DNA of 62,369 nt from Lachnospiraceae bacterium. GTDB lineage: Bacteria > Bacillota > Clostridia > Lachnospirales > Lachnospiraceae. A model generated the notes under the pieces. The model was not told where the DNA came from and did not search any database. It saw only the letters and a program-made list of their open reading frames with translations. The stretch spans positions 1 through 62,369 of the forward strand of contig CAJTEM010000029.1 of assembly GCA_910575255.1 (NCBI GenBank), read 5' to 3'. This document shows, one piece after another, positions 32,544-58,960 of the stretch; the first letter of the stretch is position 1; every line of letters starts with the position of its first letter. The translations under genes and the position numbers were made by a program.

Positions 32544-32785
32544 GCCAAGGAGAAGGAGAGAGTCGCCGCAGGGAATGGTCTGCTACTTTTTTCAGTTTCG
32601 AGATTAAGAATTCCTAAAATCCCTGAATTTTGCTAAAAGCGAAACGAAAATTCACAAACTCGCTTCGCTCAGACAGTGTGAATTTTCGTTTCAACGCAAA
32701 ATTCAGAGATTTAAGGACTTCTAAATCTCTGCAAAGTCAAAAGTAGCAGACCATTCCCTGCGGCGACTCTCTCCTTCTCCTTGGC
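32544..32785. repeat. Palindromic repeat A (complete)
   Basis: Outer arms 32544-32590 and 32739-32785 are perfectly complementary over 47 bp. Inside are a weaker second stem (CCTGAATTTTGC with GCAAAATTCAG) and a perfect inner 16-bp stem (32641-32656 with 32677-32692) closed by the loop AACTCGCTTCGCTCAGACAG. GGTACGCC marks the left border. With repeat F it fills the gap between the activator and the EAL gene. Confidence 0.93.
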
Positions 32786-32856
32786 TGCGTTTCTCGTTTT
32801 CTCAATTTATTATTAAATTTTCATGAGTTATTTTCTTTGAAACAGGCAGGATACCA

Positions 32857-33056
32857 GCTCTGGAAAAAGGGTTCCCCGGATTGCGTTTGCAGGATGTCTG
32901 GAAACTCTTAGCTCGCAGGAATCTGCGTCAGTGTCAAAAATACAACTGTCTGAGCGAAGCGAGTTCTGTATTTTTGACACTGCTTTTAGCAGATTTCTGC
33001 AAGCTTAGAGTTTCTGCATCCGAAACCCGCAATCCGGGGAACCCTTTTTCCAGAGC
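32857..33056. repeat. Palindromic repeat F (complete, other subtype)
   Basis: Outer arms 32857-32885 and 33028-33056 are perfect over 29 bp; a weaker middle stem follows, and an inner perfect 16-bp stem (32929-32944 with 32967-32982) closes on CTGTCTGAGCGAAGCGAG, the reverse complement of the loop in repeats A, B and E. It ends at the border motif GCGTACC next to the EAL gene stop. Confidence 0.92.
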
Positions 33057-33069
33057 GTACCTTTCTGAA

Positions 33070-34374
33070 CTAAATCCAACGCAGCCCCCTCTTTTCCTCC
33101 AAAAACTGAATCAGTTCTTTCTCTGGCATCGGCCTGGCAAAATAGTATCCCTGAATCCGATCCAGTCTCCTCTCCTGGGCGGTCTTTGCCTGCTGCTCTG
33201 TCTCCACTCCCTCGGCAACTACCACACAATCATTCTCATGCATAATATCAGCCAGAAGTCCGATCGTCCTCAGACCCTTATCACTGCTGTTCATCGTCTT
33301 TACCAGTGACTGATCAAACTTAATCACCTCAAAGGGCAGAGAAAGCATACTGGAAATATTGGAATAACCTGTGCCAAAATCATCCAGATAGAAATGGATT
33401 CCCTTCCGAGACAGATATTCCATCACTTTCTTTACCTTCTCAAAATCCTCTGTAATAATACGCTCTGTGATCTCAATCCGCAGACGTCCTCCATCCGTAT
33501 GGTAGTTCTCCAGATGTTCTTCAATCCGCCTGACAAAACCGGGATTTAATATCTGCTTTCCTGTCATGTTGACCGAAACGGCAGATAACGGCAGATCCGG
33601 ATAATGGCCAAGAAATTCACACACCTTCTCCAGTACAATCCAGCTGATATCATCGATCAGCCCGTTAATCTCTGCCATGGGAATAAATTCTCCCGGAGAA
33701 ATAAAAGAACCATCCCTCCCAAACAGCCGAATCAGAGACTCCGCTGAATCAAATCTTTCCTTCTGGCAATCATAGATCGGCTGGTAATACATCTGAAACG
33801 TCTTATTTTCAATGGCATATCTTACCTCCTCCAGCACATACCTCTTGCGCTGCATATCGGCATTGATAGCCTCATCGAAAAATATTACATTGTCCTCCTC
33901 GTGAGAAGGAACCATAGAAATCGTATAATTAATCTTATCGAGAAGATCATTCTCTGTATCTCTTGGATCAAGAAACAGATGGAGCAGACAGGCACTCGAG
34001 AGAATCGCATACTCTTTCTCCCTGTAGCTTACTCTCCAATCCTTCTGAAAACGTTTATGAATGCCCTCGACAAACTCTTCTGCCTTGTGCTGAGTACATT
34101 CTCCTCCCATCAGCACCAGGCGCGAATTCCCTATCCGGTATGCTGTATATTCTTCATCCAGTTCCTTCAGATATTCAGAAATAACCCGAATCAGCTGATC
34201 TCCTACCTGTACTCCGTATCTACGGTTAATATGTGCCAGATGAGACAATTGAACTACAATAATATGAACATGTGCATCTAATTCTATATGATATCTTACA
34301 TCCTGAAAAAATGCACTTCGGTCTCCCAGACCTGTCATGGAATCATAATTGTAACAGGAAGATACATTGTTCAT
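33070..34374 (-). CDS. EAL-domain c-di-GMP phosphodiesterase with degenerate GGDEF
   Basis: A 434-residue cytoplasmic protein. The first 160 residues resemble a GGDEF domain (YDSMTGLGDRSAFF) but the GGDEF motif is replaced by a sequence around NSRLVLMGG, so no cyclase activity is expected. The EAL domain (from about residue 185) keeps MYYQPIYD, ESLIR in the EAL position, SVNMTGKQ, DDFGTGYS around residue 330 and VAEGVETEQQ, which are the metal and catalytic sites. It should therefore hydrolyse c-di-GMP. No membrane segments or sensor domain are seen. The GGDEF remnant may bind GTP as a regulator. Confidence 0.9.
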   Translation of the reverse strand: MNNVSSCYNYDSMTGLGDRSAFFQDVRYHIELDAHVHIIVVQLSHLAHINRRYGVQVGDQLIRVISEYLKELDEEYTAYRIGNSRLVLMGGECTQHKAEEFVEGIHKRFQKDWRVSYREKEYAILSSACLLHLFLDPRDTENDLLDKINYTISMVPSHEEDNVIFFDEAINADMQRKRYVLEEVRYAIENKTFQMYYQPIYDCQKERFDSAESLIRLFGRDGSFISPGEFIPMAEINGLIDDISWIVLEKVCEFLGHYPDLPLSAVSVNMTGKQILNPGFVRRIEEHLENYHTDGGRLRIEITERIITEDFEKVKKVMEYLSRKGIHFYLDDFGTGYSNISSMLSLPFEVIKFDQSLVKTMNSSDKGLRTIGLLADIMHENDCVVVAEGVETEQQAKTAQERRLDRIQGYYFARPMPEKELIQFLEEKRGLRWI

Positions 34375-34542
34375 TACACTCTCTCCGATTCTCTATATAT
34401 TTACTCCATACCTCGCCTCGTACTCTGCCCTTTTGCCATTATCTGCCTTACTTATACTGGAGTCTTCTTCTTTTTATCATATTACAAGCCATGAAAAATG
34501 TCAATTTTCTCCTGGATTGAAAAGCCTGCAGTAAATTTCCGG

Positions 34543-36252
34543 TTACTGCTCACTCAGAAACAACTTCACTTTCTCTTCAATTACAGAGCTGATATACCCT
34601 TTCCATGAAGGAGCATCGAATAAGTCTCTTTTTTCTTCGCACTTTTCAAGCAATTCCTGTAACCTGTCCGGTGTAGTCCTTTCCGCTTTAAACATTGCCA
34701 CAAAGAATTTGCGAAATTGCTCCAGAGTCAACGGTACAATATCCAGTCTCTGCTTTCGATCGTTCTTTGCATACCAGATACCATGTCTAAAGGTCTCCGC
34801 GGTATTGGTATCGATTTTAATCGCAATAAACATGCCGTATACAGGCTTATCATATTTCAAAACCGCATCCGAAACATGGCGTCTGACCGGCTCCCCCTCC
34901 ATGGCCTCCTGTTTGGATGACGTAGACATCGTCACTTCCGTTAATATGACAAAATCCTCATATTCCCAATACAAATCACCCTTTCCTCCACCAGCAGCCG
35001 AAACCGGGAAAAAATCAGAATCCAATCGGAAGCCTCGCACCTCATATGGTTGATTCACTATTTGACCCATTGCAAGAGCTGCCCTCCATAATACCCATTC
35101 GAGATATGCCGGGGTTTCCTCTTTTGGAATCTCAATCGCATTGTCATCATCGTAAACGATCTTCCCGCCGCCTTTGATAAGGAGAGACATATAATCTGCT
35201 ATTTCCCTCCACTGATTGCACTGTTCCTTTGCATAGGAAATCTCATCTGTCTGAGCCAATATATTTTCCAATCGCTGCCTGGCAATATTAATTTCTGTAG
35301 AATTCGTTAACGGAAGGTCAGAAATATGAAATACAATATGCCGCTCCCTCATCCGCTTCATCAGATCATCCAATAATATTTTCGCAGTATCTTTATCATC
35401 GGTTGGAAGCGGTGCACCATTACATAGCTTTTGATATTCTCTTATGATGGGTTCTTCATTTGCAGTCGACTTCGCAAGCTTTTCTGCCAGAATATGCTTG
35501 GAAGGAACAATAATAAGCCCCCTTCCTTTTCGCTGAAACACTCCTGAAATCCGGAGATATCTCATATTCATATCACTGTAGTCTAAAAAATTATCCCGTT
35601 TTTTCTGATAATTTCTGCTTCTTTTCGCAATCTCTTCCTTATCAAAAGAGCGCTTTGCCGATGCAAGCGCTCTTCGGCTTCTTAAGTCAAGGATATTGTC
35701 AACCACTTCTTTCAGCCCATATCCAGGATTGGTTGTATGTCCCCATAAAGCAAATTCAATCCGACTAAGCTCAGAACTTCCTGTTCTCTTTTCTAATTCC
35801 AACATAATTGCCAGAAGCCATCTTAACGGCGAAAAATAGCCTTTCTTATCTGGCATCGGAAACTGTTCCACACTCATGGCACGCAAATAGCATTCCTGTA
35901 CTGCCGGATAGGTATCTGCTTTTAAAAATGCTTTTCCAAACGGTGTCAAATCATCAAGCTTTCCTAATTCTTCCTGTCTCCCGTCCGTTTTACTGATTCG
36001 CGGATAAATAAAACCATTTTTTGCAAACATCAGTCTCCATTTTCGGGCATGACTCCCTGATTCGTCTTTTCCACTCTTATTTTGAATAATCCCCTTTTCA
36101 TTGAGCAAATTCATAAAGCCGATCTCATTATCCCTGCCATGAAGCTTTCCCACAAATGAAGAATTAGCAAAAACACAAAAGCCTTCCTGAATGCGATTCG
36201 GGTTCCTTAAACCAGTATTGCCTACCAGCCAGATATCAATTTGTTCATCCAT
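34543..36252 (-). CDS. AlwI-type type IIS restriction endonuclease
   Basis: A 569-residue enzyme matching the AlwI family, which recognises the asymmetric site GGATC and cuts outside it. The likely nuclease centre is near residue 420, where GGGKGDLYWEYEDFVILTEVTM supplies the acidic residues, followed by the conserved EGEPVRRHV. The N-terminal two thirds probably read the DNA. The fused methyltransferase lies 14 bp upstream in the same direction, giving a complete restriction-modification pair. The GGATC specificity is inferred from the family, not proved by sequence. Confidence 0.85.
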   Translation of the reverse strand: MDEQIDIWLVGNTGLRNPNRIQEGFCVFANSSFVGKLHGRDNEIGFMNLLNEKGIIQNKSGKDESGSHARKWRLMFAKNGFIYPRISKTDGRQEELGKLDDLTPFGKAFLKADTYPAVQECYLRAMSVEQFPMPDKKGYFSPLRWLLAIMLELEKRTGSSELSRIEFALWGHTTNPGYGLKEVVDNILDLRSRRALASAKRSFDKEEIAKRSRNYQKKRDNFLDYSDMNMRYLRISGVFQRKGRGLIIVPSKHILAEKLAKSTANEEPIIREYQKLCNGAPLPTDDKDTAKILLDDLMKRMRERHIVFHISDLPLTNSTEINIARQRLENILAQTDEISYAKEQCNQWREIADYMSLLIKGGGKIVYDDDNAIEIPKEETPAYLEWVLWRAALAMGQIVNQPYEVRGFRLDSDFFPVSAAGGGKGDLYWEYEDFVILTEVTMSTSSKQEAMEGEPVRRHVSDAVLKYDKPVYGMFIAIKIDTNTAETFRHGIWYAKNDRKQRLDIVPLTLEQFRKFFVAMFKAERTTPDRLQELLEKCEEKRDLFDAPSWKGYISSVIEEKVKLFLSEQ

Positions 36253-36266
36253 CCGATTACCTCATA

Positions 36267-38162
36267 TCAGAATCCCACAAATAAATATTCCTGAACCCTG
36301 TTTCTGCTGGTTTTCGCATTATTTTGGTTTCCAAATGAATACATGTAGTCTATCGGAATCACCTCCACCTGCTTTTTATATTTTGCCATAATAGCAACCA
36401 TTTCTTCCTGCGCGGGTAAACTGTTCGAGGAATATGACACAATTAAAATACTGTCCTTAAACTTCTTGAACAATTGATCAAAAGCATCCGTTGCTCCTCT
36501 GCGTGTCGAAAAGGGTGTCGGATAGGACTTGAATTTTTTTGTCAAAGTATTCTGCTGAATTTCCACTCCTTTCCAGTCACGGGCGAGACCTTCTACAAAA
36601 TGATATCGCCTCACATATTCATTATCAGAAAGCGGCGAATAATACGGCGGATCGATGTACACAAGATCCGGCGTTCCCGCTTTCAGCTCCATAGCATCTC
36701 CATGCTTTGCTTTATTCGTTCTGCCATTATCAAACACTGCCTTATTCACTGCCTGCACTGCCTCTAAAAACTGTTGTTCCAGGGATTTCTTTAAATCCAT
36801 CCGGCCATCATTATACCGATCTCCCGTATATGTAAAAATCCCGCGCGGCCGTTTCTTCGTACAGGCACGAATTAAAGCAGTCATGGCAATGGCGTGCTTA
36901 TACGGATCCTTTATGGATGCAATATTCATTCTCAGGGTATCAATCCTGTCATTTTCCTCATCTGTGTAATACAAGCCCTGAAATGTATCCGCAACAAAAT
37001 GATCCGACTCCTTATACTGAACCAGAAGCCTCTCCGCCTCCTCCATGGACAGGGTGATCCCATTATTTTCAATCATCGCTTTTGCAAAGACTGCGGACAT
37101 CGCCATATAGTCATTGCTTATCACTGCCTTTCCCTGAGCTTTGAACATATACCCGACGATCCCTGAGCCGGCAAATAAATCTACTGCAGTGTCAAACGAA
37201 AACTGAGCTGCGACCGACCAGATTTCAGAGAGCAATTTACTTTTAGAACCCATGAATCTGGTAGCCGGATACTTTAAAACCTGCTCCGGTAATGGTTCCG
37301 AAACCGGCCTGAGCATTGTTTTTTTTCTTGGTGTGACTGTAACTATGACATCCTCTCCCCTTCTGTTATTTCCACTGCAGGATATATAACGCTTTGTCTG
37401 AATTACTTCAATATTAAATGGCTTATACAATTCATGTACCAGCGAATGATTCGAGTTTGTAAGAATCACATGACATCCCAGCTCCTGCAATCGTAATACC
37501 TCATTCGCCAATTCCACATGATCCTCCTCATAAAACTGCTCCTTTGTATAACGTTTAAAATCCGCATACTCCGAAACAGGAAGATATGGCGGATCCAAAA
37601 AGATAAAATCGCCGGCTTTTGCGTACTCATGCAACACCGACAGATAATCTCCGCATACGATGACCGCCCTCTTCAATATCTCTGATGCCGTGTGCAACGC
37701 ATCTGCATCGCAGAAATTGGGAGCCTTATATTTTCCAAACGGAACATTAAACTTTCCCTTTTTATTTACCCGGTAAAGGCCATTAAAGCAGGTCTTATTC
37801 AAATAAATTGTCCTTGCTGCAGCCTCCGGTTTGGTTAGATTCTGCCATTCCAAATTGCGGACATGATAAAACATCTCCTGAGTATTTTCGTATTTTTGTA
37901 AGCAATCTATCACTGTATCAACATCATCTGCAACCTGCCGATACACATTAATCAATTCCGGATTACTGTCAGAAATAATCGCATGATCTGGATTCAATGC
38001 AAAAAACATTGCACCCCCACCGATAAACGGCTCTATATATCTGTTATAGGAAGCGGGAACCTTGGGCAATAAATTTCCTAACATTTGTGTCTTCCCGCCC
38101 GCCCATTTTAATATAGGCTTCGCCTGCACATTATTCTTTTTTTTCATTGCCTGCTGTGTCAT
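36267..38162 (-). CDS. Fused double D12-class DNA adenine methyltransferase
   Basis: A 631-residue protein with two complete N6-adenine methyltransferases in tandem. The first has WAGGK, the S-adenosylmethionine motif EPFIGGG and catalytic DPPY at 190-193; the second has RFMGSKSKL, DLFAGSG and DPPY at 504-507. An asymmetric site needs a different enzyme for each strand, and a fusion like M.FokI solves this, so it suits the AlwI-type partner. The start at 38162 follows AAAGGAAACGGA; a 58-codon upstream extension crosses the promoter and is rejected. Confidence 0.9.
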   Translation of the reverse strand: MTQQAMKKKNNVQAKPILKWAGGKTQMLGNLLPKVPASYNRYIEPFIGGGAMFFALNPDHAIISDSNPELINVYRQVADDVDTVIDCLQKYENTQEMFYHVRNLEWQNLTKPEAAARTIYLNKTCFNGLYRVNKKGKFNVPFGKYKAPNFCDADALHTASEILKRAVIVCGDYLSVLHEYAKAGDFIFLDPPYLPVSEYADFKRYTKEQFYEEDHVELANEVLRLQELGCHVILTNSNHSLVHELYKPFNIEVIQTKRYISCSGNNRRGEDVIVTVTPRKKTMLRPVSEPLPEQVLKYPATRFMGSKSKLLSEIWSVAAQFSFDTAVDLFAGSGIVGYMFKAQGKAVISNDYMAMSAVFAKAMIENNGITLSMEEAERLLVQYKESDHFVADTFQGLYYTDEENDRIDTLRMNIASIKDPYKHAIAMTALIRACTKKRPRGIFTYTGDRYNDGRMDLKKSLEQQFLEAVQAVNKAVFDNGRTNKAKHGDAMELKAGTPDLVYIDPPYYSPLSDNEYVRRYHFVEGLARDWKGVEIQQNTLTKKFKSYPTPFSTRRGATDAFDQLFKKFKDSILIVSYSSNSLPAQEEMVAIMAKYKKQVEVIPIDYMYSFGNQNNAKTSRNRVQEYLFVGF

Positions 38163-38199
38163 TCCGTTTCCTTTCCCTATGACTGATTCCCCACCATAT

Positions 38200-38228
38200 A
38201 GTATACCTCTAAAAATCAGCAAAAGCAA
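38200..38228 (-). promoter_or_regulatory. Sigma-A promoter of the restriction-modification operon
   Basis: Minus-strand TTGCTT, a 17-bp spacer and TATACT, about 38 bp upstream of the methyltransferase start. The methyltransferase is transcribed first, the endonuclease second. Confidence 0.72.
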
Positions 38229-38271
38229 TAATATAGGGGTACTTTTCACGGGGAAGGGTTCCGGGGGGGAC

Positions 38272-38515
38272 GCCTTGGAACAAGGGGAGAGCCGCAGCGG
38301 GAAATGGTCTGCAGATGTTTCCGGTTTCGAGATCAAGAATTCCTAAAATTTCTGACTTTTGCAAAAAGCGAAACGCAAATCCACAAACTCGCTCCGCTCA
38401 GACAGTGTGGATTTGCGTTTCCATGCAAAACTCAGAAATTTAAGGACTTCTAAATCTCTGCAAAGTCAACATCTGCAGACCATTTCCCGCTGCGGCTCTC
38501 CCCTTGTTCCAAGGC
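38272..38515. repeat. Palindromic repeat B (complete)
   Basis: Outer arms 38272-38319 and 38468-38515 are perfectly complementary over 48 bp, yet their middle part differs from repeat A. The inner stem GAAACGCAAATCCACA pairs with TGTGGATTTGCGTTTC around the conserved loop (CTCGCTCCGCTCAGACAG). It lies just upstream of the restriction-modification promoter. Confidence 0.93.
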
Positions 38516-38577
38516 TGAATATCCCTTTTCCATAAATGAACTGACATTACTTCATGGATGGTTCTTTCAATGTCAGC

Positions 38578-38616
38578 AGGTATCAGCTCTGGAAAAAGGA
38601 ATTCCACGAATTGCGT
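38578..38616. repeat. Left-arm fragment of a type F repeat
   Basis: GGTATCAGCTCTGGAAAAAG and the following bases resemble the left outer arm of repeat F. A degenerate GGTACGCC border occurs at 38731-38738. Nothing else is recognised between 38516 and 38770. Confidence 0.6.
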
Positions 38617-38773
38617 CCTCACTACAAAAACAACAGTGTAAAAAATGAAAACATACTGTAAACTCAAGTTTTTGACTATCTACCATTGGGTATGTCTAAT
38701 ATAACCCTGGATGAAAGGAGGGAAGCGGGAGGTACGCCCATCTCAAAATATCTCTCGTTCATCGAAGATAAAA

Positions 38774-38810
38774 ACAGTTGACAACTGTTATTATCTGTTA
38801 TATACTGTTA
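38774..38810 (+). promoter_or_regulatory. Promoter and operator of the GntR-ABC operon
   Basis: A perfect TTGACA (38778-38783), 17-bp spacer and TATACT (38801-38806). A 17-bp palindrome AACAGTTGACAACTGTT overlaps the -35 box, and CTGTTA recurs at 38785, 38795 and 38805, exactly 10 bp apart. These are probable binding sites for the GntR protein encoded next. Confidence 0.75.
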
Positions 38811-38829
38811 TCAAGAAAGGAGAGCTGAT

Positions 38830-39204
38830 ATGAACCTCATCATCAATCATTCATCCATGCAGCCGATTTATGAGCAGATCTCCGGACAGATCAAGGAAAA
38901 AATCATTCATAATGATCTGATTGAGGGATCCTGTCTTCCTTCGGTCAGGACTCTTGCCCGAGAGCTGCGAATCAGTGCTCTGACTGTCAAAAAGTCATAC
39001 GATATCCTGGAGCAAGAAGGCTTTATCATTACCGTTCACGGGAAAGGAAGTTTTGTCGCCAGCGCTAACCAGGAACTGCTGGCAGAAGAGAAAAGACGGG
39101 AAGTGGAAGCTGAACTGGAACAGGCAATCCGCAAAGGCAGAAGCTGCGGATTGAAGGATTCGGAGATCAGAGAGCTTTTTCAGATCCTTTTGGAAGAGGG
39201 ATGA
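38830..39204 (+). CDS. GntR-family regulator, YtrA type
   Basis: A 124-residue protein of the small YtrA subfamily. The winged helix-turn-helix (YEQISGQIKEKIIHNDLIEG, then LPSVRTLARELRISALTVKKSYDILEQEGFI and the wing GKGSFVAS) covers residues 10-78; a short helical tail for dimerisation follows, with no ligand-binding domain. YtrA proteins repress adjacent ABC exporter operons. AAGGAGAG precedes the ATG. It is first in a three-gene operon, with probable binding sites over its own promoter. Confidence 0.92.
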   Translation: MNLIINHSSMQPIYEQISGQIKEKIIHNDLIEGSCLPSVRTLARELRISALTVKKSYDILEQEGFIITVHGKGSFVASANQELLAEEKRREVEAELEQAIRKGRSCGLKDSEIRELFQILLEEG

Positions 39205-39287
39205 AGACTTCATCCATTCATCGGTATTTTTACATCATACATCAAGTGCACAGTAAGCGATCCACATATAGAACGGAGGTTATCATT

Positions 39288-40136
39288 GTGATTCAATTAT
39301 ACAATATCAGCAAACAATACCCCGGATTTCAGCTGCAATGCTCTCTGGAGGTACCGCCAAACCGTGTGACTGCGCTGATCGGTCCTAACGGTTCCGGCAA
39401 AAGCACCACATTCAAGGCTATCCTGGGACTGATCCATCCGGATAGCGGTGAGCTTCGGATATTGGGAAAGCCGGTTTCTAAGCTAACCGTTTCGGATCGA
39501 ACCCTGCTGGGAGTTGCCATGTCTGATTCCTGTTTTAGTGGTTATCTTTTGATTCAGGATATCATTCCGATTCTGTCTCAGATGTATCCGACATTTCAAA
39601 AGGAATATTTCCTGGAAAAGTGCCGACATTTTAACCTTTCTCTTACCAGAAGAATCAATGATCTTTCTACCGGAATGAAAGCCAAGCTAAAGGTTCTCAT
39701 TGCCATATCTCATCAGGCCCGGCTGTTGATCCTGGATGAGCCGACAACAGGCCTGGACGTACTGGCAAGGGAAGAGGTTTTGGATATGTTGAGGGAATAT
39801 ATGCTTCCCGGCGATCGCTCTATCCTGATCAGCTCTCATATTTCCGGCGATCTGGAAGGGCTTTGCGATGACTTCTACCTGATTCACGATGGCAGGATTC
39901 TCCTTCATGAGGAGACAGATACTCTTTTGGACTGTTATGGCATTCTTAAAGTAACAGAAGAACAATATCACACTCTGGATTCAAGCTATTTACTCAGAAA
40001 AAAAAGAGAATCCTACGGTTATCGGATTCTCACCACACAAAAGCAGTTTTACCAGGAAAATATGCCAGAGCTTGTAATCGAAAAATGCAATATTGACGAG
40101 ATTATTCTGATGATGACTAAGGGGGAGGTATTATGA
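39288..40136 (+). CDS. ABC transporter ATP-binding protein
   Basis: A 282-residue ATPase of the CcmA/YtrB export type. Walker A is IGPNGSGKSTT, the signature motif is the divergent LSTGMKAKL (in place of LSGGQ), and Walker B is LLILDEPTTGLD, with the switch region SSHISGDL. I start at the GTG 39288, preceded by ACGGAGG at an eight-base distance; the ATG at 39201 would overlap the GntR stop but has a poorer site and adds 29 residues with no family match. It overlaps the permease gene by 4 bp. Confidence 0.86.
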   Translation: MIQLYNISKQYPGFQLQCSLEVPPNRVTALIGPNGSGKSTTFKAILGLIHPDSGELRILGKPVSKLTVSDRTLLGVAMSDSCFSGYLLIQDIIPILSQMYPTFQKEYFLEKCRHFNLSLTRRINDLSTGMKAKLKVLIAISHQARLLILDEPTTGLDVLAREEVLDMLREYMLPGDRSILISSHISGDLEGLCDDFYLIHDGRILLHEETDTLLDCYGILKVTEEQYHTLDSSYLLRKKRESYGYRILTTQKQFYQENMPELVIEKCNIDEIILMMTKGEVL

Positions 40137-40777: not shown

Positions 40778-40799
40778 CCTGCAAAGTGTATCCGTTTTT

Positions 40800-41669: not shown

Positions 41670-41701
41670 AATCCCTACCTCCTCGATCCACATGCTTTAA
41701 T

Positions 41702-42460: not shown

Positions 42461-42478
42461 CTCACATTCTCTTAACTC

Positions 42479-43387: not shown

Positions 43388-43390
43388 AAA

Positions 43391-44392: not shown

Positions 44393-44457
44393 GATGACTC
44401 CTTTCATACAGGAAAAAGTATAACATAAAATTGGACCCCTGTATAGAAAAATCCCTT

Positions 44458-46640: not shown

Positions 46641-46659
46641 CGAAAAATTTGTTACTTTA

Positions 46660-46825
46660 ACTAATTGACATGATACCAGGGTCAAAAGACCTTTTTCCCC
46701 AACATCTTGACATTGTTTCACGGGGTTGGGTTCCGAAAGATACCGCTCTGGAAAAAGGGTTGACGCTTGCCGACATCGAAAGAATCAACCTGTGAAACAA
46801 TGTCGATTTATTTAAGAAAGGGATA
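46660..46825. repeat. Patchwork of repeat fragments
   Basis: Holds GACATTGTTTCACGGGG (end motif of the TIR-bearing repeats), GATACCGCTCTGGAAAAAGG (left arm of type F) and a 60-bp block shared with 5258-5320. No complete palindrome remains. Confidence 0.65.
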
Positions 46826-46857
46826 TTCATCCTTGGAACAACAGCATTCTATATCCA

Positions 46858-47150: not shown

Positions 47151-47153
47151 TAT

Positions 47154-47199
47154 AAAAAGGATATCCGTGATTATATGACAAATCATGAATATCCTTTTT
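47154..47199. terminator. Bidirectional terminator
   Basis: Stem AAAAAGGATAT (47154-47164) with ATATCCTTTTT (47189-47199) and an inner GTGATT/AATCAT pairing, between convergent genes. T-runs exist on both strands. Confidence 0.8.
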
Positions 47200-47213
47200 A
47201 TTTATAAAATAAT

Positions 47214-48890: not shown

Positions 48891-48940
48891 TATCCCGTCT
48901 CCGTCAGAACTAATTTATATAATTTTCGCTCAGCTGTTTT

Positions 48941-49447: not shown

Positions 49448-49473
49448 GTTTTACTCCCGTCATTGACTTTAAT

Positions 49474-50433: not shown

Positions 50434-50434
50434 A

Positions 50435-51202: not shown

Positions 51203-51366
51203 ATTTTTCCCTTTTATTTTATTCTAAGTGATCTATTTTTAAAATTAATCACTTTTCTCCACTCTATCCGTACCGTTTCTTACAGATAAATTCCAATTAT
51301 TAGTATATCATATCTTTCTTTATTTTCCTATGTGTAAAAAAAATAAAAGCGCGATTTTTTTCCTAA

Positions 51367-51382
51367 TGTTTCACGTGAAACA
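51367..51382. promoter_or_regulatory. parS site 1
   Basis: TGTTTCACGTGAAACA, a perfect 16-bp match to the ParB binding site, 165 bp upstream of parA. Confidence 0.95.
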
Positions 51383-51504
51383 TGGATAAAATCTTTGTGA
51401 TATGATTCAACCTGTTGTTCCACTAAAAAACAAATATAATACACCCTCTCGGTATTCAGTTATTCGCTGAGTTATCAGAATATTACTTCTACACTTCGTC
51501 GCAT

Positions 51505-51871
51505 CACGGGCAATGTCAGTTAGTTAAGCATTTCTCTGAAAGGTACGCCAAAAAAAAGAAGAAATAAGTCCTAAATTTTCTGTAAAGGTCAACATCTGCA
51601 GACCATTTTCCGCTGCGTCTCTCTCCTTGTTCCAAGGCTGAACAGCCCGTTCCCCGTTCTTTAGAGACTGGTAAATACCACCCCATGAAGCAATGTCAGT
51701 TAGTTAGGGAACCGAGAAACACAGCCAAGGAAATGAGGAGAGAGGCCCACCGGAAATTAAGGACTTTTAAATCTCTGCAAAGTCAAAATCCGCAGACTAT
51801 TTCCGGTGGCCCCTCTCCCCGTTTTCTTGACGTACCTTATGGAACAACTTAACTAACTGACATTGCCCATG
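51505..51871. repeat. Composite palindromic repeat C/D with terminal inverted repeats
   Basis: Bounded by CACGGGCAATGTCAGTTAG (51505) and its near complement ending at 51871. It contains a remnant (C, 51589-51638) equal to the right arm of repeat B, and a shortened complete copy (D, 51691-51865) with its own 16-bp inverted ends and arms 51725-51757 and 51799-51829. D lacks the central loop. The rest of the 51203-52022 gap holds parS and a promoter. Confidence 0.85.
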
Positions 51872-51919
51872 AACAGTAACCGATCATTATAAAATTTTAT
51901 TATAAGACTACATTTTTCA

Positions 51920-51948
51920 TTGTATCATCCTCTGTTTTGTATTATACT
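51920..51948 (+). promoter_or_regulatory. Sigma-A promoter of the hydrolase gene
   Basis: TTGTAT, a 17-bp spacer and TATACT, 74 bp before the start codon. Confidence 0.65.
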
Positions 51949-52022
51949 ATTCTTATGATGTTGATGTTAAAAGGTATTTGCCCCTATGATTCAACCGGTT
52001 TTTCATTTTACAGGAGGTATTC

Positions 52023-52973
52023 ATGAAAACTAAAAACAAGCTTTTAACTATGCTTATTTTGTCCTCCAGCGCTGTAACCATTACAGCCTTCATCAATAAA
52101 ATAGTTAAAATGCAAGCTATCAAAAATAACCTTTTAGAAGAAAAGGAAGCTCACTGCTATTCCTGGCGTTTGGGTAATATTTTTTATACCAAAACAGGAA
52201 CTGAAAAACCTATTCTTCTTGTACATGACTTAAACGCAATCTCCAGCAACTATGAATGGAATCAATTGATTTCTCTTCTTTCTGAGAATTATACCGTCTA
52301 TGCTATTGACCTTCTTGGTTGCGGACGTTCTGAAAAAGTAAATACTACTTACACTAACTATCTGTATGTACAGCTGATTACTGACTTTATCAAATCGGAG
52401 ATCGGTCATCGAACCAATATTGTCTGTACTGGTGAATCTTCCTCCATTGCCCTTATGGCATGTTCTAACGAGCCGGATCTTTTTGACCAGATTATGTTGA
52501 TTAATCCACTTCCTCTGTCAAAATATTGCAAGATGCCCGGTAAACGTTCCAGACTCTACAAAAAGATTATTGAAGTACCTATACTTGGAACTCTGCTCTA
52601 TCACATAGCTGTAAGTAAGAGATCTATAGAAGCAGAGATGAAAAATCTCTATTTTTATAATCCTTACACAATCAAAGCTGCCTGGATTGATTCCTATTAT
52701 AAGGCTGCTCATTTAGGTCTTTCACCTAAATCTGTCTATGCCAGCCAGAGATGTAACTATACTAAGTGTAATATTATCAATGCACTTAAAAAAATCAATA
52801 ATAGTATTTATTTAATCGGCGGAGGCGCTATCGAAGATATATTGATCAGACTGGACGAATATACTATGTATAATCCGGCAATCGAGGTTACTATAATTCC
52901 TGAAACCAAACAACTGCCGCAATTAGAGAGTCCACACAGCTTGAATGAATTGATAAAGACATATTTTTGTTAA
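52023..52973 (+). CDS. Alpha/beta hydrolase with N-terminal membrane anchor
   Basis: A 316-residue hydrolase. Residues 8-26 form a hydrophobic anchor or signal. The alpha/beta core has PILLVHDLNAISSNYEW (oxyanion region), IDLLGCGRSEK, and the nucleophile elbow G-E-S-S-S in VCTGESSSIALMA; the catalytic histidine is probably in the SPHSLNELI end. The elbow's x positions are unusual. Substrate is unknown. CAGGAGG precedes the ATG and a promoter stands upstream. The composition is AT-richer than its neighbours. Confidence 0.82.
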   Translation: MKTKNKLLTMLILSSSAVTITAFINKIVKMQAIKNNLLEEKEAHCYSWRLGNIFYTKTGTEKPILLVHDLNAISSNYEWNQLISLLSENYTVYAIDLLGCGRSEKVNTTYTNYLYVQLITDFIKSEIGHRTNIVCTGESSSIALMACSNEPDLFDQIMLINPLPLSKYCKMPGKRSRLYKKIIEVPILGTLLYHIAVSKRSIEAEMKNLYFYNPYTIKAAWIDSYYKAAHLGLSPKSVYASQRCNYTKCNIINALKKINNSIYLIGGGAIEDILIRLDEYTMYNPAIEVTIIPETKQLPQLESPHSLNELIKTYFC

Positions 52974-53122
52974 TACTTTTTTAAATCAACACCACTGCAG
53001 AAAACAACGGAACAGTAAGCTTGCAGAGCCTGCTCTCTATATTCGCTAAATACTCATGTCCTATAGACTGGCTCATCATCACGAGTACAGCACCTGTCTT
53101 ATTATTCAAAAAGTTAATAAAA

Positions 53123-53138
53123 TGTTTCACGTGAAACA
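53123..53138. promoter_or_regulatory. parS site 2
   Basis: A second perfect TGTTTCACGTGAAACA, 24 bp before the VOC gene start. ParB bound here could affect expression of that gene. The gap from 52974 holds nothing else recognised. Confidence 0.95.
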
Positions 53139-53162
53139 TAATATAAAAAAGGAGAATATTTT

Positions 53163-53528
53163 ATGATTAAGTTCAATCACTTCAATTTCAATGTTCTGAA
53201 TTTAGAAAAAAGCTTACAATTTTATAAGGATACCTTAGGTTTAGAACCCGTACGGGAAAAAATTGCTTCTGATGACTCATTTAAATTAGTATACCTGGGT
53301 GATCATAATTCCGACTTCACTTTGGAACTCACCTGGCTCAGAGATCGCAAAGAGCCATACAATCTTGGAGAATGTGAATTCCATCTGGCATTTGTTACAG
53401 ATGACTTCGATAATCTCCATAAAAAACATAAAGATCAGGGGGTAATCTGCTTCGAGAATGAGACAATGGGAATTTACTTCATCTCCGATCCAGACGGTTA
53501 CTGGATTGAGATTGTCCCGCAACGATAA
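53163..53528 (+). CDS. VOC family protein, glyoxalase I-like
   Basis: A 121-residue single-module vicinal-oxygen-chelate protein. The fold pattern is seen in NHFNFNVLNLEKSLQFYKDTLGL at the start, then ELTWLRDRKEPY, HLAFVTDDF and the end IYFISDPDGYWIEIVPQ with a metal-ligand glutamate. It resembles lactoylglutathione lyase (methylglyoxal detoxification), but members of this family do many reactions. AAGGAG precedes the ATG; a GC-rich hairpin follows. Confidence 0.85.
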   Translation: MIKFNHFNFNVLNLEKSLQFYKDTLGLEPVREKIASDDSFKLVYLGDHNSDFTLELTWLRDRKEPYNLGECEFHLAFVTDDFDNLHKKHKDQGVICFENETMGIYFISDPDGYWIEIVPQR

Positions 53529-53535
53529 GATATTC

Positions 53536-53563
53536 AGAACCCCGCAGTTTGCTGCGGGGTTCT
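53536..53563. terminator. GC-rich hairpin between VOC gene and tag
   Basis: A perfect 12-bp stem (AGAACCCCGCAG, 53536-53547, with 53552-53563) and 4-nt loop between convergent genes. T-runs are weak. Confidence 0.7.
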
Positions 53564-53575
53564 ATACAAATCGAC

Positions 53576-54157
53576 TCAATTTTTCAATCCCTTACTTTTA
53601 TAAAGGAAACACTTCTCATCATGTGAATAAATCATCCCGATTGCCTGCAGATAGGCGTAGATGATCGTTGTGCCGACAAATTTCATTCCTCTCTTCTTCA
53701 AATCCCCCGAAATCTGATCTGACAATTCGGAAGAAGTTTTATCACACTCATATATAATTCTATGATCCGTATAATTCCATATGTATTCAGAAAATGAACC
53801 ATACTCCTTTTGAATCAGGCGAAATATCTTTGCATTATTCACAGCTGCACATATCTTTCGATAATTTCTGATAATGCCAGAATTATTCACCAACTCCTGA
53901 ATTTTCTTTTCATCATAATTACACACATGATCTAAATCAAAATCATCAAAAGCCTTGCGAAAGTTTTCCCTTTTATTGAGTACACATTCCCAAGATAAGC
54001 CTGCCTGAAAACTTTCCAGAATCAATAATTCGAATAAGCGAGAATCCTCATACTGAGGAATTCCCCACTCCTGATCATGATACTCCACATATTTTATGTT
54101 CTTGAGGTTACACCATTTACATCTGCACTTATTTATATTGACATTCTTATTCTCCAT
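53576..54157 (-). CDS. tag: DNA-3-methyladenine glycosylase I
   Basis: A 193-residue base-excision repair enzyme that removes 3-methyladenine from DNA. The N-terminal CRCKWC and the family block VEYHDQEWGIPQYEDSRLFELLILESFQAGLSW are diagnostic; zinc ligands include the N-terminal cysteine and the late HDEKC. Length is normal. It stands alone between two non-coding gaps. Confidence 0.95.
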   Translation of the reverse strand: MENKNVNINKCRCKWCNLKNIKYVEYHDQEWGIPQYEDSRLFELLILESFQAGLSWECVLNKRENFRKAFDDFDLDHVCNYDEKKIQELVNNSGIIRNYRKICAAVNNAKIFRLIQKEYGSFSEYIWNYTDHRIIYECDKTSSELSDQISGDLKKRGMKFVGTTIIYAYLQAIGMIYSHDEKCFLYKSKGLKN

Positions 54158-54437
54158 ATATAATCCTTTTAATATAATGATATGATGTTTTGGTCAAAAG
54201 TTCTTTTGCCCCCTCTGATACCGGATTGCTCCGCACTTTGTGCTCCCGCTTCTTCACTCCGTTGCGGTCGGCGCTGAACAAACCTCCATCGGACGTTTAG
54301 CACCCTCAAAAACATTCAAAATTCTCCCTAATCAGGCTGCTTTTTCCTGTTTTTGGCGAGTCACAATTTCAAAAATCCTCTTGCAAACAAGCACATCGAA
54401 TTTTTTAACCTTAATTTCCTGGTATCATATAATTATT
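54158..54437. other. Non-coding gap between rsmG and tag
   Basis: The 280-bp gap holds no credible gene. At 54190-54230 a GGTCAAAAG-CTTTTGCCCC block resembles one at 46680-46700, both near a GATACC motif, suggesting another dispersed repeat. The rest is AT-rich without structure I can support. Confidence 0.4.
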
Positions 54438-55169
54438 TTACCCTATCGGCTCTTTTCCTGGCAATCCAGCTTTTCTTGGATATCTCTTTTCTGTATTTTT
54501 CACTTTCCTTATGACTACCAAATCCCGTTCAGCTTCCGTACCTGTCAAAATAAATTTTTCCAGAAGTTGAATCTCCCCACCGAGAATTTTAATTGCTTTT
54601 CTTCCCTTCTCCAGCTCTTCTTCCACTTTTCCTGACTTATAAGATACAAATCTTCCCCCCACTTTTACAAACGGAAGACAGTATTCTGCCAGCGTTGCAA
54701 TATTAGCAACTGCTCTGGATACACAAAGATCAAACTTCTCCCGATAATTCTTATCCCTGCCAAGATCTTCCGCCCTTCCATGAACCGCAGTAATCTCAGA
54801 CAAACCTAATCTGTCAATTACCTCTCCCAAAAATCCTACACGCTTATTCAAAGAATCTAAAAGAGTTACTGTTATATCAGGAAAAGCAATTTTTAAAGGA
54901 ATTCCAGGAAAACCAGCTCCGGTTCCTACATCAATGAAATGCTTATTCGAATCCTCCAAAATACTTTCTACCTTAACCAGTGAAAGACTGTCTATAAAGT
55001 GTTTATAAATCACATCTTCCCATTCTGTAATTGCCGTAAGATTCATAACCTTATTCCGCTCAATCAGTAATTCATAATATTGATAAAATTGCTCTAACTG
55101 AACTTCTGACAGACAAATTCCCAGTTCTCCACAAGCGGAAGCTATCCTATCCACAAAAACACGCTTCAT
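54438..55169 (-). CDS. rsmG: 16S rRNA (guanine527-N7)-methyltransferase
   Basis: A 243-residue class I methyltransferase that modifies G527 of 16S rRNA. S-adenosylmethionine is bound by DVGTGAGFPGIPL, and ILEDSNKHFI plus LDSLNKRVGFL are family-specific. I start at the ATG 55169, at a good distance from AAGGA; a GTG two codons upstream is too close to it. It lies 12 bp after mnmG in the conserved origin-region order. Confidence 0.94.
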   Translation of the reverse strand: MKRVFVDRIASACGELGICLSEVQLEQFYQYYELLIERNKVMNLTAITEWEDVIYKHFIDSLSLVKVESILEDSNKHFIDVGTGAGFPGIPLKIAFPDITVTLLDSLNKRVGFLGEVIDRLGLSEITAVHGRAEDLGRDKNYREKFDLCVSRAVANIATLAEYCLPFVKVGGRFVSYKSGKVEEELEKGRKAIKILGGEIQLLEKFILTGTEAERDLVVIRKVKNTEKRYPRKAGLPGKEPIG

Positions 55170-55181
55170 ATCCACTCATCC

Positions 55182-57068
55182 TTACCTTGCTGTTCTTCTC
55201 ATTTGCTCCAGATAAACCAAAAGCACAGAAATATCTGCCGGAGAAACTCCGGAAATTCTTGATGCCTGTCCAATAGATACCGGCTTATACAGATTTAGCT
55301 TCTGTACAGCCTCTTTTCTCAGACTCCCTACCTGATTATAGTCAAAATCAAGATCCAGCTTTTTACTTTCCAATTTTTTAAACTGAGCTACCTGTTGCTT
55401 TTGTCTTTTTAAGTATCCTTCATATTTTATACTTATGTTAACTTGTTCTTGAACATCATACGCCAAAACCGGACGTTTTTCATCAATATCAGTTAACATA
55501 AAATAATCCAATTCCGGCCGGCGAATCAACTCCGCAAGGGTAGATCCTGTTTTTAATAAAGTACTCCCATGGCAATTCAGAAAATCCTGTACCTTCGGAT
55601 TTGCCCCTGTCGGAGTATTCTCAACCCTCTTTATCTCTTCCTCTATCAATCTTTCCTTTTCCTTTACATATTGATAATCTTTTTCAGAGACAAGCCCCAT
55701 CTGATATCCGATCTCCCGCAATCTGAGATCTGCATTATCCTGCCGCAAAAGCAAACGATATTCTGCCCGAGAAGTCATCATACGATATGGTTCATGATTC
55801 TCCTTTGTCACCAGATCATCAATCAATACCCCAATATATGCCTGAGAACGATCTAAAACAAATGCTTCTCTTCCTATTACCTGCATGGCTGCATTCACAC
55901 CTGCCATAAATCCCTGTACAGCAGCCTCCTCATATCCGGAACTTCCGTTGAATTGTCCTCCGCTGAAAAGTCCATGAATTCTCTTAAATTCTAAGCTTGG
56001 TTTCAGCTGCAGAGAATTAATGCAATCGTATTCAATCGCATATGCATTTCTGACAATGCTTACTTTTTCCAGTCCCGGTACTGTGCGGTACATTCGATAT
56101 TGAACATCCTCCGGCAAAGAGCTAGACATTCCGCTTAAATACATTTCATTGGTATATAATCCTTCTGGCTCTATGAATACCTGATGGCGCTCTTTATCCG
56201 GAAACTTTATCACCTTATCTTCTATGGAAGGACAATACCGCGGACCAGTACCTTCAATCACGCCAGAAAATAAAGGAGAACGATCAATATTTTCACGAAT
56301 GATACGGTGAGTTTCCGAATTCGTATAAGTCAGCCAGCAGGAAACCTGTTCCTTTTGTACAGATTCCGGATCTGTCGAAAAAGAAAAGGGAACCACTGTC
56401 TCATCTCCCAATTGTTCCTCCATTTTAGAAAAGTCAATACTTCTCTTATCCACACGAGCAGGGGTTCCTGTCTTAAAGCGAAACATTTCAATCCCATGAT
56501 GAATCAAAGAATCTGTAAGATGATTGGCTGCCTGCAGTCCATTTGGTCCGGTGGGATTACTCACATCTCCATATATACATCGTGCCCGCAGATAGGTTCC
56601 GGTAGCCAAAACCACTGCCCTGGCATGATAAACTGCACCCGAGGAAGTCTTTACTCCTGTAATTCTATGATCTTCCACCAGAATATCCGACACCTCAGCC
56701 TGACGAATCGTCAAATGAGCCGTATTCTCTAATGTTCTTCTCATCTCACGACTGTAATCCTGCTTATCTGCCTGAGCCCTCAAAGAATGTACGGCCGGTC
56801 CTTTTGATTCATTTAACATTTTGGATTGAATAAAAGTCTTATCGATATTCTTTCCCATCTCCCCGCCAAGTGCATCCAACTCTCTTACCAAATGCCCTTT
56901 TGAGCTTCCGCCGATATTCGGATTACACGGCATTAGAGCAATGCTGTCAATACTAATCGTAAAAACAATCGTTTCCAATCCCAGACGGGCACAAGCCAAA
57001 GCTGCCTCGCACCCGGCATGTCCGGCTCCCACCACTACAATATCATAATATTCCTCTAAATAAGGCAT
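55182..57068 (-). CDS. mnmG: tRNA uridine-5-carboxymethylaminomethyl modification enzyme MnmG
   Basis: A 628-residue FAD enzyme (GidA) that with MnmE makes cmnm5U at the wobble position of certain tRNAs. The FAD motif GAGHAG is at residues 14-19; the signatures [18 protein letters not shown] and [21 protein letters not shown] are intact, and the C-terminal helical domain that contacts MnmE ends the protein. Length is typical. It lies between mnmE and rsmG. Confidence 0.97.
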
Positions 57069-57103
57069 TCCCGATCTCCTTGATATTTTCTGTAATTATC
57101 CTG

Positions 57104-58486
57104 CTATTTTCCCATACAAAAGCTTCCGAAAATCTCATTTACCAGATCCTCTTCAACAGATTCTCCTATAATCAGACCTAATTCTTCATAAACATCCATC
57201 AGATCAATCGTCAGAAAATCCTCCGGCACTCCCTTATCAATTCCCTCCATCACCATCTTAAGGCTATCCCGCGTCTTCTCCAAAGCTCTTTTATGCCGCA
57301 CATTGGTGATCACAACCTCATCATTAAAATCAATTTTTCCCTGCAAAAAAAGATCTGACACCATTTTTTCCAGCTCTTTCATCCCAGTCTCCTCCCTGGC
57401 CGAAACTGCAATCACCGGATGGCCTGTCTTCTCCTCCAGATATTCCTTACTAACCACCAAATCCAGATCCGTCTTATTTAACAAAATTATCGCCCGCCTG
57501 TTCCGGATCATATCCATGATTTTTTCATCATTTTCATCCAGCATACAGGCTCCATCCACCACATAGATAATCAGATCCGCTTCCTCTGCCGCTTCCTTTG
57601 CCCGGGAAACACCAATCTGTTCGATTATATCTGCTGTTTCCCGGATCCCTGCCGTGTCAATCAATTGCAGATAAACATCCCCCAGACGGATCTGTTCTTC
57701 CAACATATCCCGGGTAGTCCCTGCAATATCCGTAACAATCGCCCGCTCCTCTCCCACCAGAACATTCATGAGAGAAGATTTTCCCGCATTGGGCTTACCC
57801 AGAATCACAGTACGGATTCCCTCTGAGATAATCCTTCCGTTATCTGATGTACGAATCATCTGTTCCACATCATCAATCACAGGATTCAAAATCTTTCTAA
57901 GATCCTCCCCATATCCATCCAGAGAAATATGTTCCGGATCATCCAATGCCGATTCAATATAAGCCATCTGATACAGAATGATTTCTCTTAACTCCCTCAC
58001 CTTCCGGGAAACCGAACCCTTCAACTGGCAGATGGAACTTTTCCTTGCATACTCATTCTTGGCACAAATCACATCCATCACAGCTTCAGCCTGAGACAGA
58101 TCCATACGGCCATTCAAAAAAGCCCTTTTTGTAAATTCTCCGGGTTCCGCCGGTACAGCCCCATAACAAATCACAGTCTCCAGAATTCTCTTCATCATCA
58201 GGACACCACCGTGACAGTCAATCTCTACCGTATCCTCCCCAGTATAACTGTGAGGCCCCCTCATCACTAAAACCAATACCTCATCCAAAATCAGATCACC
58301 ATCATAAATCACTCCATAATGCACGGTATGAGAAGGTACTTCACTTAATCTCTTCTTTCCATTTCTGAAAATCCGATCCGCAACCGCAATCGCCTCTCCC
58401 CCGCTGATCCTTATAATTCCGATCCCAGAATTACTCAAAGCCGTTGAAATCGCCGCAATCGTATCCGACTCCCGTCCAATCCCCAT
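57104..58486 (-). CDS. mnmE: tRNA modification GTPase MnmE
   Basis: A 460-residue GTPase (TrmE), partner of MnmG. The N-terminal folate-binding domain (TIAAISTALSNSGIGIIRISG) dimerises; the G domain has G1 GKPNAGKSS around residue 230, G3 DTAGIRET and G4 NKTD. The C-terminal CMGK carries the functional cysteine (CxGK). GGAGG precedes the ATG. The gap to jag is filled by a palindromic repeat. Confidence 0.97.
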   Translation of the reverse strand: MGIGRESDTIAAISTALSNSGIGIIRISGGEAIAVADRIFRNGKKRLSEVPSHTVHYGVIYDGDLILDEVLVLVMRGPHSYTGEDTVEIDCHGGVLMMKRILETVICYGAVPAEPGEFTKRAFLNGRMDLSQAEAVMDVICAKNEYARKSSICQLKGSVSRKVRELREIILYQMAYIESALDDPEHISLDGYGEDLRKILNPVIDDVEQMIRTSDNGRIISEGIRTVILGKPNAGKSSLMNVLVGEERAIVTDIAGTTRDMLEEQIRLGDVYLQLIDTAGIRETADIIEQIGVSRAKEAAEEADLIIYVVDGACMLDENDEKIMDMIRNRRAIILLNKTDLDLVVSKEYLEEKTGHPVIAVSAREETGMKELEKMVSDLFLQGKIDFNDEVVITNVRHKRALEKTRDSLKMVMEGIDKGVPEDFLTIDLMDVYEELGLIIGESVEEDLVNEIFGSFCMGK

Positions 58487-58608
58487 CTCATCCTCCTGCT
58501 ACATAAAATAAAATCATCACTAAAATAATAACATCCCTGAACCATATTCTCAATATATTTTCAGTTGTTTTTTATATTCCATTCCGATTATTGTTACTTT
58601 TCACGGGC

Positions 58609-58960
58609 CAATGTCATTTAGTTAAGTTTTACCAGAAGGTACGCCTTGGAAAAGAGGTGGGAGGCGGCCAGAAATGGTCTGCTGCTTTTTCCGGTTTCGA
58701 GATTCACAGAAAACCTGCCACTGGCAGCTTTTCTGCGTGCTAAGGCAAAGAATTCCTAAAATCCCTGATTTTTGCTAAAAGCGAAACAAAAATCCCCAAA
58801 CTCGCTTCGCTCAGACAGAGTGGATTTTTGTTTCAACGCAAAACTCAGGAATTTAAGGACTTCTAAATCTCTGCAAAGTCAAAATCTGCAGACTATTTCT
58901 GGCCGCCTCCCACCTCTTTTTCAAGGCTGAATATTCTCAGAATTTAACTAAATGACATTG
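58609..58960. repeat. Palindromic repeat E with terminal inverted repeats
   Basis: Terminal inverted repeats of 17 bp (CAATGTCATTTAGTTAA at 58609, complement ending 58960) enclose a nested palindrome. Outer arms (58643-58689 with 58881-58927) pair with few mismatches; the inner stem closes on CTCGCTTCGCTCAGACAG. TTCACGGGC flanks both sides directly (58600-58608 and 58962-58970), as would a target duplication. The insert CACAGAAAACCTGCCACTGG near 58705 is unique to this copy. Confidence 0.9.

Follow-up and report, generated by a model that had tools for sequence, protein, structure and literature searches.

What are the long palindromes that lie scattered between the genes of a Lachnospiraceae contig? 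The window, by which we mean the whole 62,369-nucleotide stretch analyzed here, is a single contig (C29) out of the 106 that make up a draft genome of 5.14 Mb. Its initial annotation described copies A, B, D, E and F of an intergenic palindrome with stems nested in one another, and guessed at a miniature inverted-repeat transposable element (MITE), a REPIN or a class of structured RNA. We find that the copies belong to a family with at least 150 matches in the same genome, whose 20-nt hairpin apex is met again in several phyla, where it caps long hairpins with unrelated stems. The explanation that we favor, with moderate confidence, is that they are non-autonomous mobile DNA with a hairpin that a trans-acting enzyme recognizes in DNA form. 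Throughout, G000 denotes the genome itself, G001-G019 and so on other genomes, L numbers fetched loci and C numbers contigs of the own genome.

An inverted-repeat search of the window, combined with direct reading, confirms that all five copies are real nested palindromes at the positions first reported. Copy A (32539..32787, plus strand) is a hairpin unit with an A-type core that runs from GGTACGCC to GGCTG; its arms (32544-32633/32696-32785) are 90 nt long and match at 88%, and its apical loop AACTCGCTTCGCTCAGACAG was located at 32657..32676 (plus strand) by direct reading and loop scan. Copy B (38267..38517, plus strand) is likewise A-type, with arms of 92 nt at 87% (38272-38363/38424-38515) and the loop AACTCGCTCCGCTCAGACAG, read directly, at 38386..38405 (plus strand). 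Copy F (32855..33061) is an F-type unit on the minus strand, placed head-on to A and reading CAGC...GCGTACC on the plus strand; its arms (32857-32896/33017-33056) measure 40 nt at 88%, and direct reading and loop scan place its apical loop at 32946..32965 (minus strand). In copy E, the hairpin unit (58638..58929, plus strand) has its left arm lengthened by an insert of about 44 nt, and the search returned arms of 62 nt at 82% (58643-58704/58866-58927). Copy D (51691..51865) is, as claimed, shortened: direct reading finds one half of an A-type core between terminal repeats.

The loop said to be common to the copies is indeed so, the apex being CTCGCTTCGCTCAGACAG in A, E and F (on the minus strand in F) and CTCGCTCCGCTCAGACAG in B. 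The common border holds in part: GGTACGCC is exact in A and E, while B has the variant GGGACGCC and F, on its own strand, GGTACGCT. Each of the five occupies a gap between genes that have Pfam matches: A and F are flanked by a sigma-54 activator gene and an EAL gene, B by a D12 methyltransferase and a GntR gene, D by a ParA-type ATPase and a hydrolase, and E by mnmE and jag. Two mechanically called reading frames touch copies, namely a TTG-started extension of the D12 methyltransferase frame, which enters B by 65 nt, and a 142-aa frame overlapping F; we take both as spurious.

To count the family we built a covariance model of the hairpin core (148 positions) from 41 hand-chosen copies out of 90 usable ones, comprising 16 of 56 A-type, 8 of 14 F-type and 17 of 20 congener copies. 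In the window the model matches A at 32593-32740 (E 6.9e-40), F at 32881-33029, B at 38322-38469 and E at 58735-58882. In the whole genome 150 of 2108 candidates were scored, so that the 150 matches obtained, a few of them partial, are a lower bound. The exact 20-nt loop pattern occurs 129 times against 0 for the control; allowing up to two mismatches gives 146 occurrences, compared with 23 for the reversed sequence used as a control. The dispersed, multi-copy family proposed from the window alone is thereby borne out. That proposal had been made to depend on further copies and on the lack of a named counterpart, and we found at least 150 matches and no Rfam match, whether for the hairpins of the window or for nine loci searched at a permissive threshold, whose 24 matches all fall below gathering scores. 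Skipping-rope RNA, considered as a lead, was dropped, there being no Rfam match. The loop sequence, in any of six spellings, is not printed in the literature searched, a search whose scope excluded subscription papers and supplements; queries with hairpin flank sequences returned only papers with unrelated titles, and a query on Lachnospiraceae MITEs gave no title on this family among the matches listed. A-type (A, B, E) and F-type (F) copies have the loop and the unpaired motifs in common and differ in their stems; judged from these sequences, they are one architecture. In some copies (L011, L014, L058) the border is swapped in orientation relative to the core. The family also affects assembly, since several contigs of carrier genomes begin inside hairpins.

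The hairpin units measure about 200-290 nt. A variable outer stem of about 40-60 bp is followed by conserved unpaired or asymmetric internal motifs (TTTCGRGAT, CCTAAAA/TTAAG, GCTAAAA/AACGC and CTGCAAA) and by the fixed apex AACTCGCTNCGCTCARACAG. The opposite strand of the apex reads CTGTYTGAGCGNAGCGAGTT and contains GCGNAGC, a sequence that forms a DNA mini-hairpin of exceptional stability, with the free N at the tip. In a set of 100 genus copies, the N column of the loop is T in 54, G in 23, C in 15 and A in 8, the R column is G in 81 and A in 19, and the other columns are 96-100% constant, a constancy inflated by loci that were fetched by the loop itself. Internal motifs and loop are among the most conserved columns of the alignment. 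The stems, in turn, covary strongly, and the nested pairing first described is upheld in both core and outer stems. Of the 1722 cells in the core alignment, 96.9% are paired and 308 have changed on both sides, and 30 of 42 pairs include such changes; sliding the partners by one column lowers the pairing to 52 or 47%. The outer stem was assessed on those 29 A-type copies that measure exactly 244 nt (the other 27 of 56 were dropped): Watson-Crick pairs fill 1137 of 1276 cells, and at least two different ones occur at 34 of 44 positions. The outer stems of the congeners G004 and G018 show no evident sequence relationship and are nonetheless, by eye and by folding energy, long and well paired.

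The apex extends far beyond this genome. In a sample of 398 genomes of the phylum, own genome included, the exact loop is found in 11 (again including the own genome) with 1 to 129 copies each. A scan of genome contigs yields at least 118 stretches (80 loci listed), against about 4 estimated by chance, and a scan of viral contigs 14. We placed the carriers by record title in Bacteroidota, Pseudomonadota (including Haemophilus and Variovorax), Nitrospira, Patescibacteria, Gastranaerophilales, Selenomonas and others. Arm pairing exceeds the maximum of 188 random positions in 64 of 95 copies from other phyla, with at least one such copy in each group named; the remaining 31, for example in Nitrospinota, do not exceed this control. 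The 12 nt of the arms nearest the loop are unrelated across these 95 copies (median identity 25%, 84 distinct). A high-copy element with its conserved part at the hairpin tip, on stems that are unrelated, departs from the usual picture of mobile elements defined by their ends and suggests that some enzyme or process reads DNA hairpins. The apex also provides a searchable handle for a class not found in Rfam.

Several side results concern these distant loci. In Haemophilus (L187, L165, L213 and G421 1007427-1008520), a small hairpin with ACTT/AAGT-rich arms precedes the long one, and AAGTGCGGT, which we take to be uptake-signal-like, adjoins the hairpins; of two Haemophilus species, one has an extra hairpin in what looks by eye like the fabH-fabD gap, the boundary not being clean. 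Other leads were rejected. The largest cluster of similar neighboring frames across phyla covers 8 of 94 loci, and no cluster printed looks transposase-like by eye; the genes lying within a 1.6-kb spacing common to two loci look, by eye, like unrelated metabolic genes rather than parts of a gene-bearing unit; and the frames of phage record MT837089 look, again by eye, like a bacterial chromosome fragment. Similarity searches gave no match in phages for a Mu-like viral locus and none in plasmids for copy A; two other loci had a few unannotated matches in plasmids. A scan of viral contigs for the loop together with TTTGGTTACTTT found nothing. One viral contig (L438, 2820-4658) has, by eye, a reverse transcriptase near an Avd-like gene, likely a diversity-generating retroelement.

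How do the hairpins spread? In the own genome they ride in two nested kinds of unit, one with CAATGTCAGTTAGTTAAG ends (CAATG units) and one with GTTACTGTTCACGGG ends (GTTAC units). CAATG units are of about 309 or 352 bp and have 9-10 bp direct repeats, and often lie within the sequence GTTCACGGG; their ends and repeats presumably resemble those of MITEs of the IS4/IS231 type. GTTAC units are larger, have 8-bp duplications and contain one to three hairpins. Copy E is a complete CAATG unit of 352 bp (58609..58960, plus strand) with termini CAATGTCATTTAGTTAAG and TTTAACTAAATGACATTG, the second a near-inverse of the first, and has recently been duplicated: a copy on contig C11 (G000:C11:104526-104895) is 99% identical to it over about 370 bp, with unrelated flanks. 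E is bounded on both sides by the 10-bp direct repeat TTTCACGGGC (58599..58608 and 58961..58970, plus strand, by direct reading) and the C11 copy by GTTCACGGGT, each matching at its own tenth base (C and T). Terminus comparison places an outer terminal repeat, GTTACTTTTCACGGG, one mismatch from GTTACTGTTCACGGG, at 58593..58607 (plus strand). Adjoining E, at 58970..59032 (plus strand), direct reading finds a deletion derivative in which termini and stem base are kept and the core is lost.

The 8-bp duplication (7 or 8 of 8 positions) of GTTAC units is found in 6 of 14 units of the own genome, including 4 of the 8 with hairpins, and in 6 of 10 units of relatives, none with hairpins and some with an end in common; mismatched pairings show it in 0 of 182 and 0 of 90 cases, respectively. 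Both kinds of unit have terminal inverted repeats, and GTTAC units have target-site duplications as well; on these sequence features we file the GTTAC carriers as MITEs. Among CAATG units of the own genome, 8 of 21 have 9-10 bp direct repeats (at least 8 of 9 positions; some cases have an end in common), as does the single unit of relatives, while 8 have inverted flanks, because these lie inside a GTTAC unit, and 5 neither. The clearest case is L029, with GGGAACAGGG on both sides and away from GTTAC ends. That the CAATG repeats are target duplications is likely, but less firmly so than for the GTTAC units. Several duplicate pairs, out of 40 listed with more than 93% identity, break at unit ends, L013/L344 and L028/L029 at both. 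Two further observations touch the carriers. A second family of about 144 bp with GTTACTGTTCAC ends and a different interior occurs in the own genome and congeners, at L393 333-476, L397 76-219, L400 295-438 and L402 1501-1643, some of its members with 8-bp duplications. Elsewhere, 8-bp flanks such as TGACCGGA and CGGCAAAA are swapped between L360, L372 and L364 (G000:C1:117664-118265, C1:175310-176103 and C4:55452-56055), as if by recombination of copies or misassembly.

The hairpin is nevertheless separable from its carriers. Exact GTTACTGTTCACRNG ends occur in 7 of the 24 genomes sampled from the genus and exact loops in 8, and the counts do not track each other: loops against ends number 39 to 2 in G013, 1 to 69 in G019, 0 to 12 in G001 and 17 to 0 in G004, and it is the 17 exact loops of G004 without an exact outer terminus that establish separability. 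Of 14 congener loci scanned for borders, eight rows, which stand for seven distinct units, extend from GGTACG to GGCTG and have flanks that by eye bear no relation to one another; the others do not match the border pattern. At the site of E, both flanking genes lie on one contig in 18 of 23 relatives, 49 to 675 bp separating the matches (71 bp in G004 and G018); none of the 18 gaps has an exact loop, nor is a hairpin visible by eye in the five, out of ten loci read, that show the gap.

Under the explanation that we favor, the core element would be a long hairpin working as DNA, composed of a variable outer stem, internal motifs and a fixed apex. Within the own genome, hairpins have spread inside small mobile units with CAATGTCAGTTAGTTAAG or GTTACTGTTCACGGG ends; no gene was found in these units. 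A trans-acting enzyme would recognize the apex and the internal motifs when the DNA is single-stranded or extruded, and the sequence of both may be selected for this recognition.

Several results weigh against this explanation, besides the pairing counts in other phyla given below. Clear direct repeats are absent from 8 of 14 GTTAC and 13 of 21 CAATG units, and 31 of 420 mismatched CAATG flank pairings pass the same repeat test, because many flanks are GTTCACGGG-like, so that these repeats alone are not decisive. Many of the 40 duplicate pairs listed break elsewhere than at termini. The hairpin also occurs without CAATG or GTTAC units, which leaves its movement there unexplained by the carriers, and a clean empty site for E was not aligned, the intergenic DNA being too diverged to place the junction. 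Finally, the longest frames inside 14 hairpin-less GTTAC ends gave no transposase family, 10 belonging to ordinary gene families and 4 having no Pfam match. No parent insertion sequence with carrier ends (GTTACTGTTCAC or CAATGTCAGT) is in hand from a transposase search that covered these 14 termini and the 30 of 142 own-genome places taken up as loci; none sharing the termini was seen in four viral contigs. Searches for the termini in viral contigs, phages and plasmids gave no unit with a matching repeat, or single matches near the estimated chance level.

The hairpins further show a marked polarity relative to one another. Of the 150 matches listed, 27 pairs lie within 700 bp, against about 3 expected, and 24 of these pairs are head-on, 2 and 1 tandem and none tail-to-tail; most of the 150 places have no such neighbor. 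In other phyla, 7 of 9 neighboring pairs are head-on, 2 tandem and none tail-to-tail, and in the window A and F form a head-on pair. It is possible, and we put this forward tentatively, that the hairpins constitute a bacteria-wide, previously undescribed class of mobile DNA hairpin that is defined by its tip rather than its ends. An enzyme would then read the CTGTYTGAGCGNAGCGAGTT apex, with its d(GCGNAGC) mini-hairpin, together with the periodic internal loops in single-stranded DNA; the second arm of each new copy would be rebuilt from the first, so that stems drift yet stay paired; and copies would work as head-on pairs. In any event, the family is a natural case in which to test how palindromes can change in sequence without losing their pairing.

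Strong covariation is also what one would see in a transcribed structured RNA family, either a small RNA or a long hairpin RNA, with the CTGTYTGAGCGNAGCGAGTT strand as the RNA. RNA stems tolerate G.U pairs, and the same pair appears as A.C on the opposite strand. The genus core has 26 G.T and 34 A.C cells, compared with 16 and 0 in a control of ten distinct tRNAs from fetched loci, the tRNA finder itself disfavoring mismatches; the outer stem in the own genome has 24 and 19. Because G.T is no commoner than A.C, unlike in tRNAs, pairing within the genus looks to be held at the DNA level, as far as sequence comparison can tell. Other counts lean the other way and could mean RNA. In the 95 copies of other phyla, A.C exceeds G.T by 83 to 39 (p 0.0001), which implies a wobble preference on the complementary strand, as expected if the CTGTYTGAG strand is transcribed; over the whole hairpin of 23 congener copies the figures are 26 and 10, most of the excess falling in positions 20-45 (16 and 4), the stretch that holds the conserved internal motifs. 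Moreover, on the CTGTYTGAGCGNAGCGAGTT strand in Bacteroidota and Pseudomonadota, the hairpin is often followed by a T-rich stretch and by another hairpin, GGTTACTTTT...AAAAGTAAC, as seen by eye and uncounted. The lack of an Rfam match speaks against an RNA, as does gene orientation: 67 own-genome copies show no bias (co-directional 20 and 20, divergent 15, convergent 12), with 15 lying between divergent genes. In other phyla, 68 copies divide into 25 and 17 co-directional each way, 9 divergent and 17 convergent. No replication-strand or G-rich-strand bias is seen (33 against 30 and 41 against 44). We regard an RNA family as improbable overall, and of the three guesses made at the outset, structured RNA is disfavored within the genus, MITE stands for the carrier units and REPIN for the head-on pairing only.

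The head-on doublets, the GGTACG tag at the outer foot of each hairpin, the compensatory stems and the patchy multi-copy distribution might instead be those of giant REPINs that a Y1 (RAYT-type) tyrosine transposase mobilizes in trans as single-stranded DNA, and hairpin-only congener units without duplication by eye are consistent with this. Y1 is a natural candidate by analogy, and its distribution does not support it. Y1_Tnp is found in 5 of 8 congeners with the exact loop and in 12 of 16 without; it was not found in G013 (91% complete, 39 exact loops), one of three loop carriers, all incomplete genomes, that show none. The loop is absent from all 30 Y1 loci of the genus (flanks up to 1.5 kb), and an IS200-trained profile of just six sequences has no Y1 match in 94 hairpin loci. 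On C4, a distance of about 2.5 kb separates a Y1 gene from two copies; the protein that this gene encodes looks IS200-like. With neither co-distribution nor adjacency, RAYT/Y1 was rejected as the mover and, as the initial annotation had remarked for the window, no transposase tied to hairpins or termini was found in the window, the 94 hairpin loci or the 14 termini. REPINs are inverted doublets of palindromes (PMC3116915), and as the reports on REPIN/REP doublets and RAYT systems describe them (PMC3116915, PMC2817692, PMC3733652), they resemble our hairpins in being high-copy intergenic palindromes in inverted doublets, with compensatory stem changes, a short tag at the outer foot and no gene inside. 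By the same descriptions, their palindrome measures 20-40 bp, compared with about 200-290 nt here; their stem is conserved, here apex and internal loops; their tag is GTAG/CGTC, here GGTACG; a cognate RAYT gene flanked by the repeat accompanies them, whereas no Y1 gene is near the hairpins; and, unlike REPINs, the carrier units leave direct repeats. We file the hairpin as REPIN-like in organization and not as a REPIN, and consider transposition by Y1 unlikely. Least probable of all are functionless palindromes hitch-hiking in unrelated MITEs and kept paired by arm-to-arm template switching, which would predict the rough equality of G.T and A.C and agree with the swapped border/core orientations noted above, but should erase internal mismatches, although motifs and loop are highly conserved, and would still require selection or transfer of the apex to place the same loop on unrelated stems in other phyla.

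Other known systems resemble mobile DNA of the kind that we favor to varying degrees. BOX elements of pneumococcus are modular, intergenic and stem-loop forming; their modules are not known to be related to those here. Bacterial MITEs (PMC10969869) are likewise short and intergenic with terminal inverted repeats, direct repeats and a stable stem-loop; they differ from our family in its separable hairpin, common to genomes without the outer terminal repeat and to other phyla, and in its two nested kinds of unit. The attC sites and the OTH-22-1 motif (PMC8632094) are also structured single-stranded-DNA elements of many phyla. An attC site was rejected, as RYYYAAC/GTTRRRY ends are present in 0 of 34 units on either strand. 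OTH-22-1, known from several phyla, might overlap with our family; compared by description only, it is characterized by an RYYYAAC end (PMC8632094), which is absent here.

The window contains further remnants of the family. Repeat searches found the right arm and border of an F-type unit at 14083..14154 (96% identity to the right arm of F), the right arm of an A-type unit at 51585..51654 (89% to that of B), unit flanks without core at 46657..46821 and, also by terminus scan, a terminus and flank without core at 5231..5321; a piece at 38578 is, by eye, an F-type arm fragment. These agree with the fragments listed in the initial annotation. An additional CAATGTCAGTTAGTTAAG terminus lies upstream of D at 51511..51528 (plus strand, terminus scan). 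Unrelated to the hairpins, an identical 30-nt sequence, TAACAGTTCAGATAACCCTTGAACTGTTAC, itself an inverted repeat, occurs at 21825-21854 and 29812-29841, and a tandem 16-nt unit (TTTTTTGCTCATTGGC-like) at 31354-31433 overlaps the 3' end of the sigma-54 activator gene. At 2139-2248 there is a TPP riboswitch that passes the Rfam gathering score. Near the ParA-type gene there are two exact TGTTTCACGTGAAACA sites (51367-51382 and 53123-53138; 0 expected in shuffles), which we take to be the parS consensus; together with jag and mnmE, they suggest that the window belongs to the replication-origin region.

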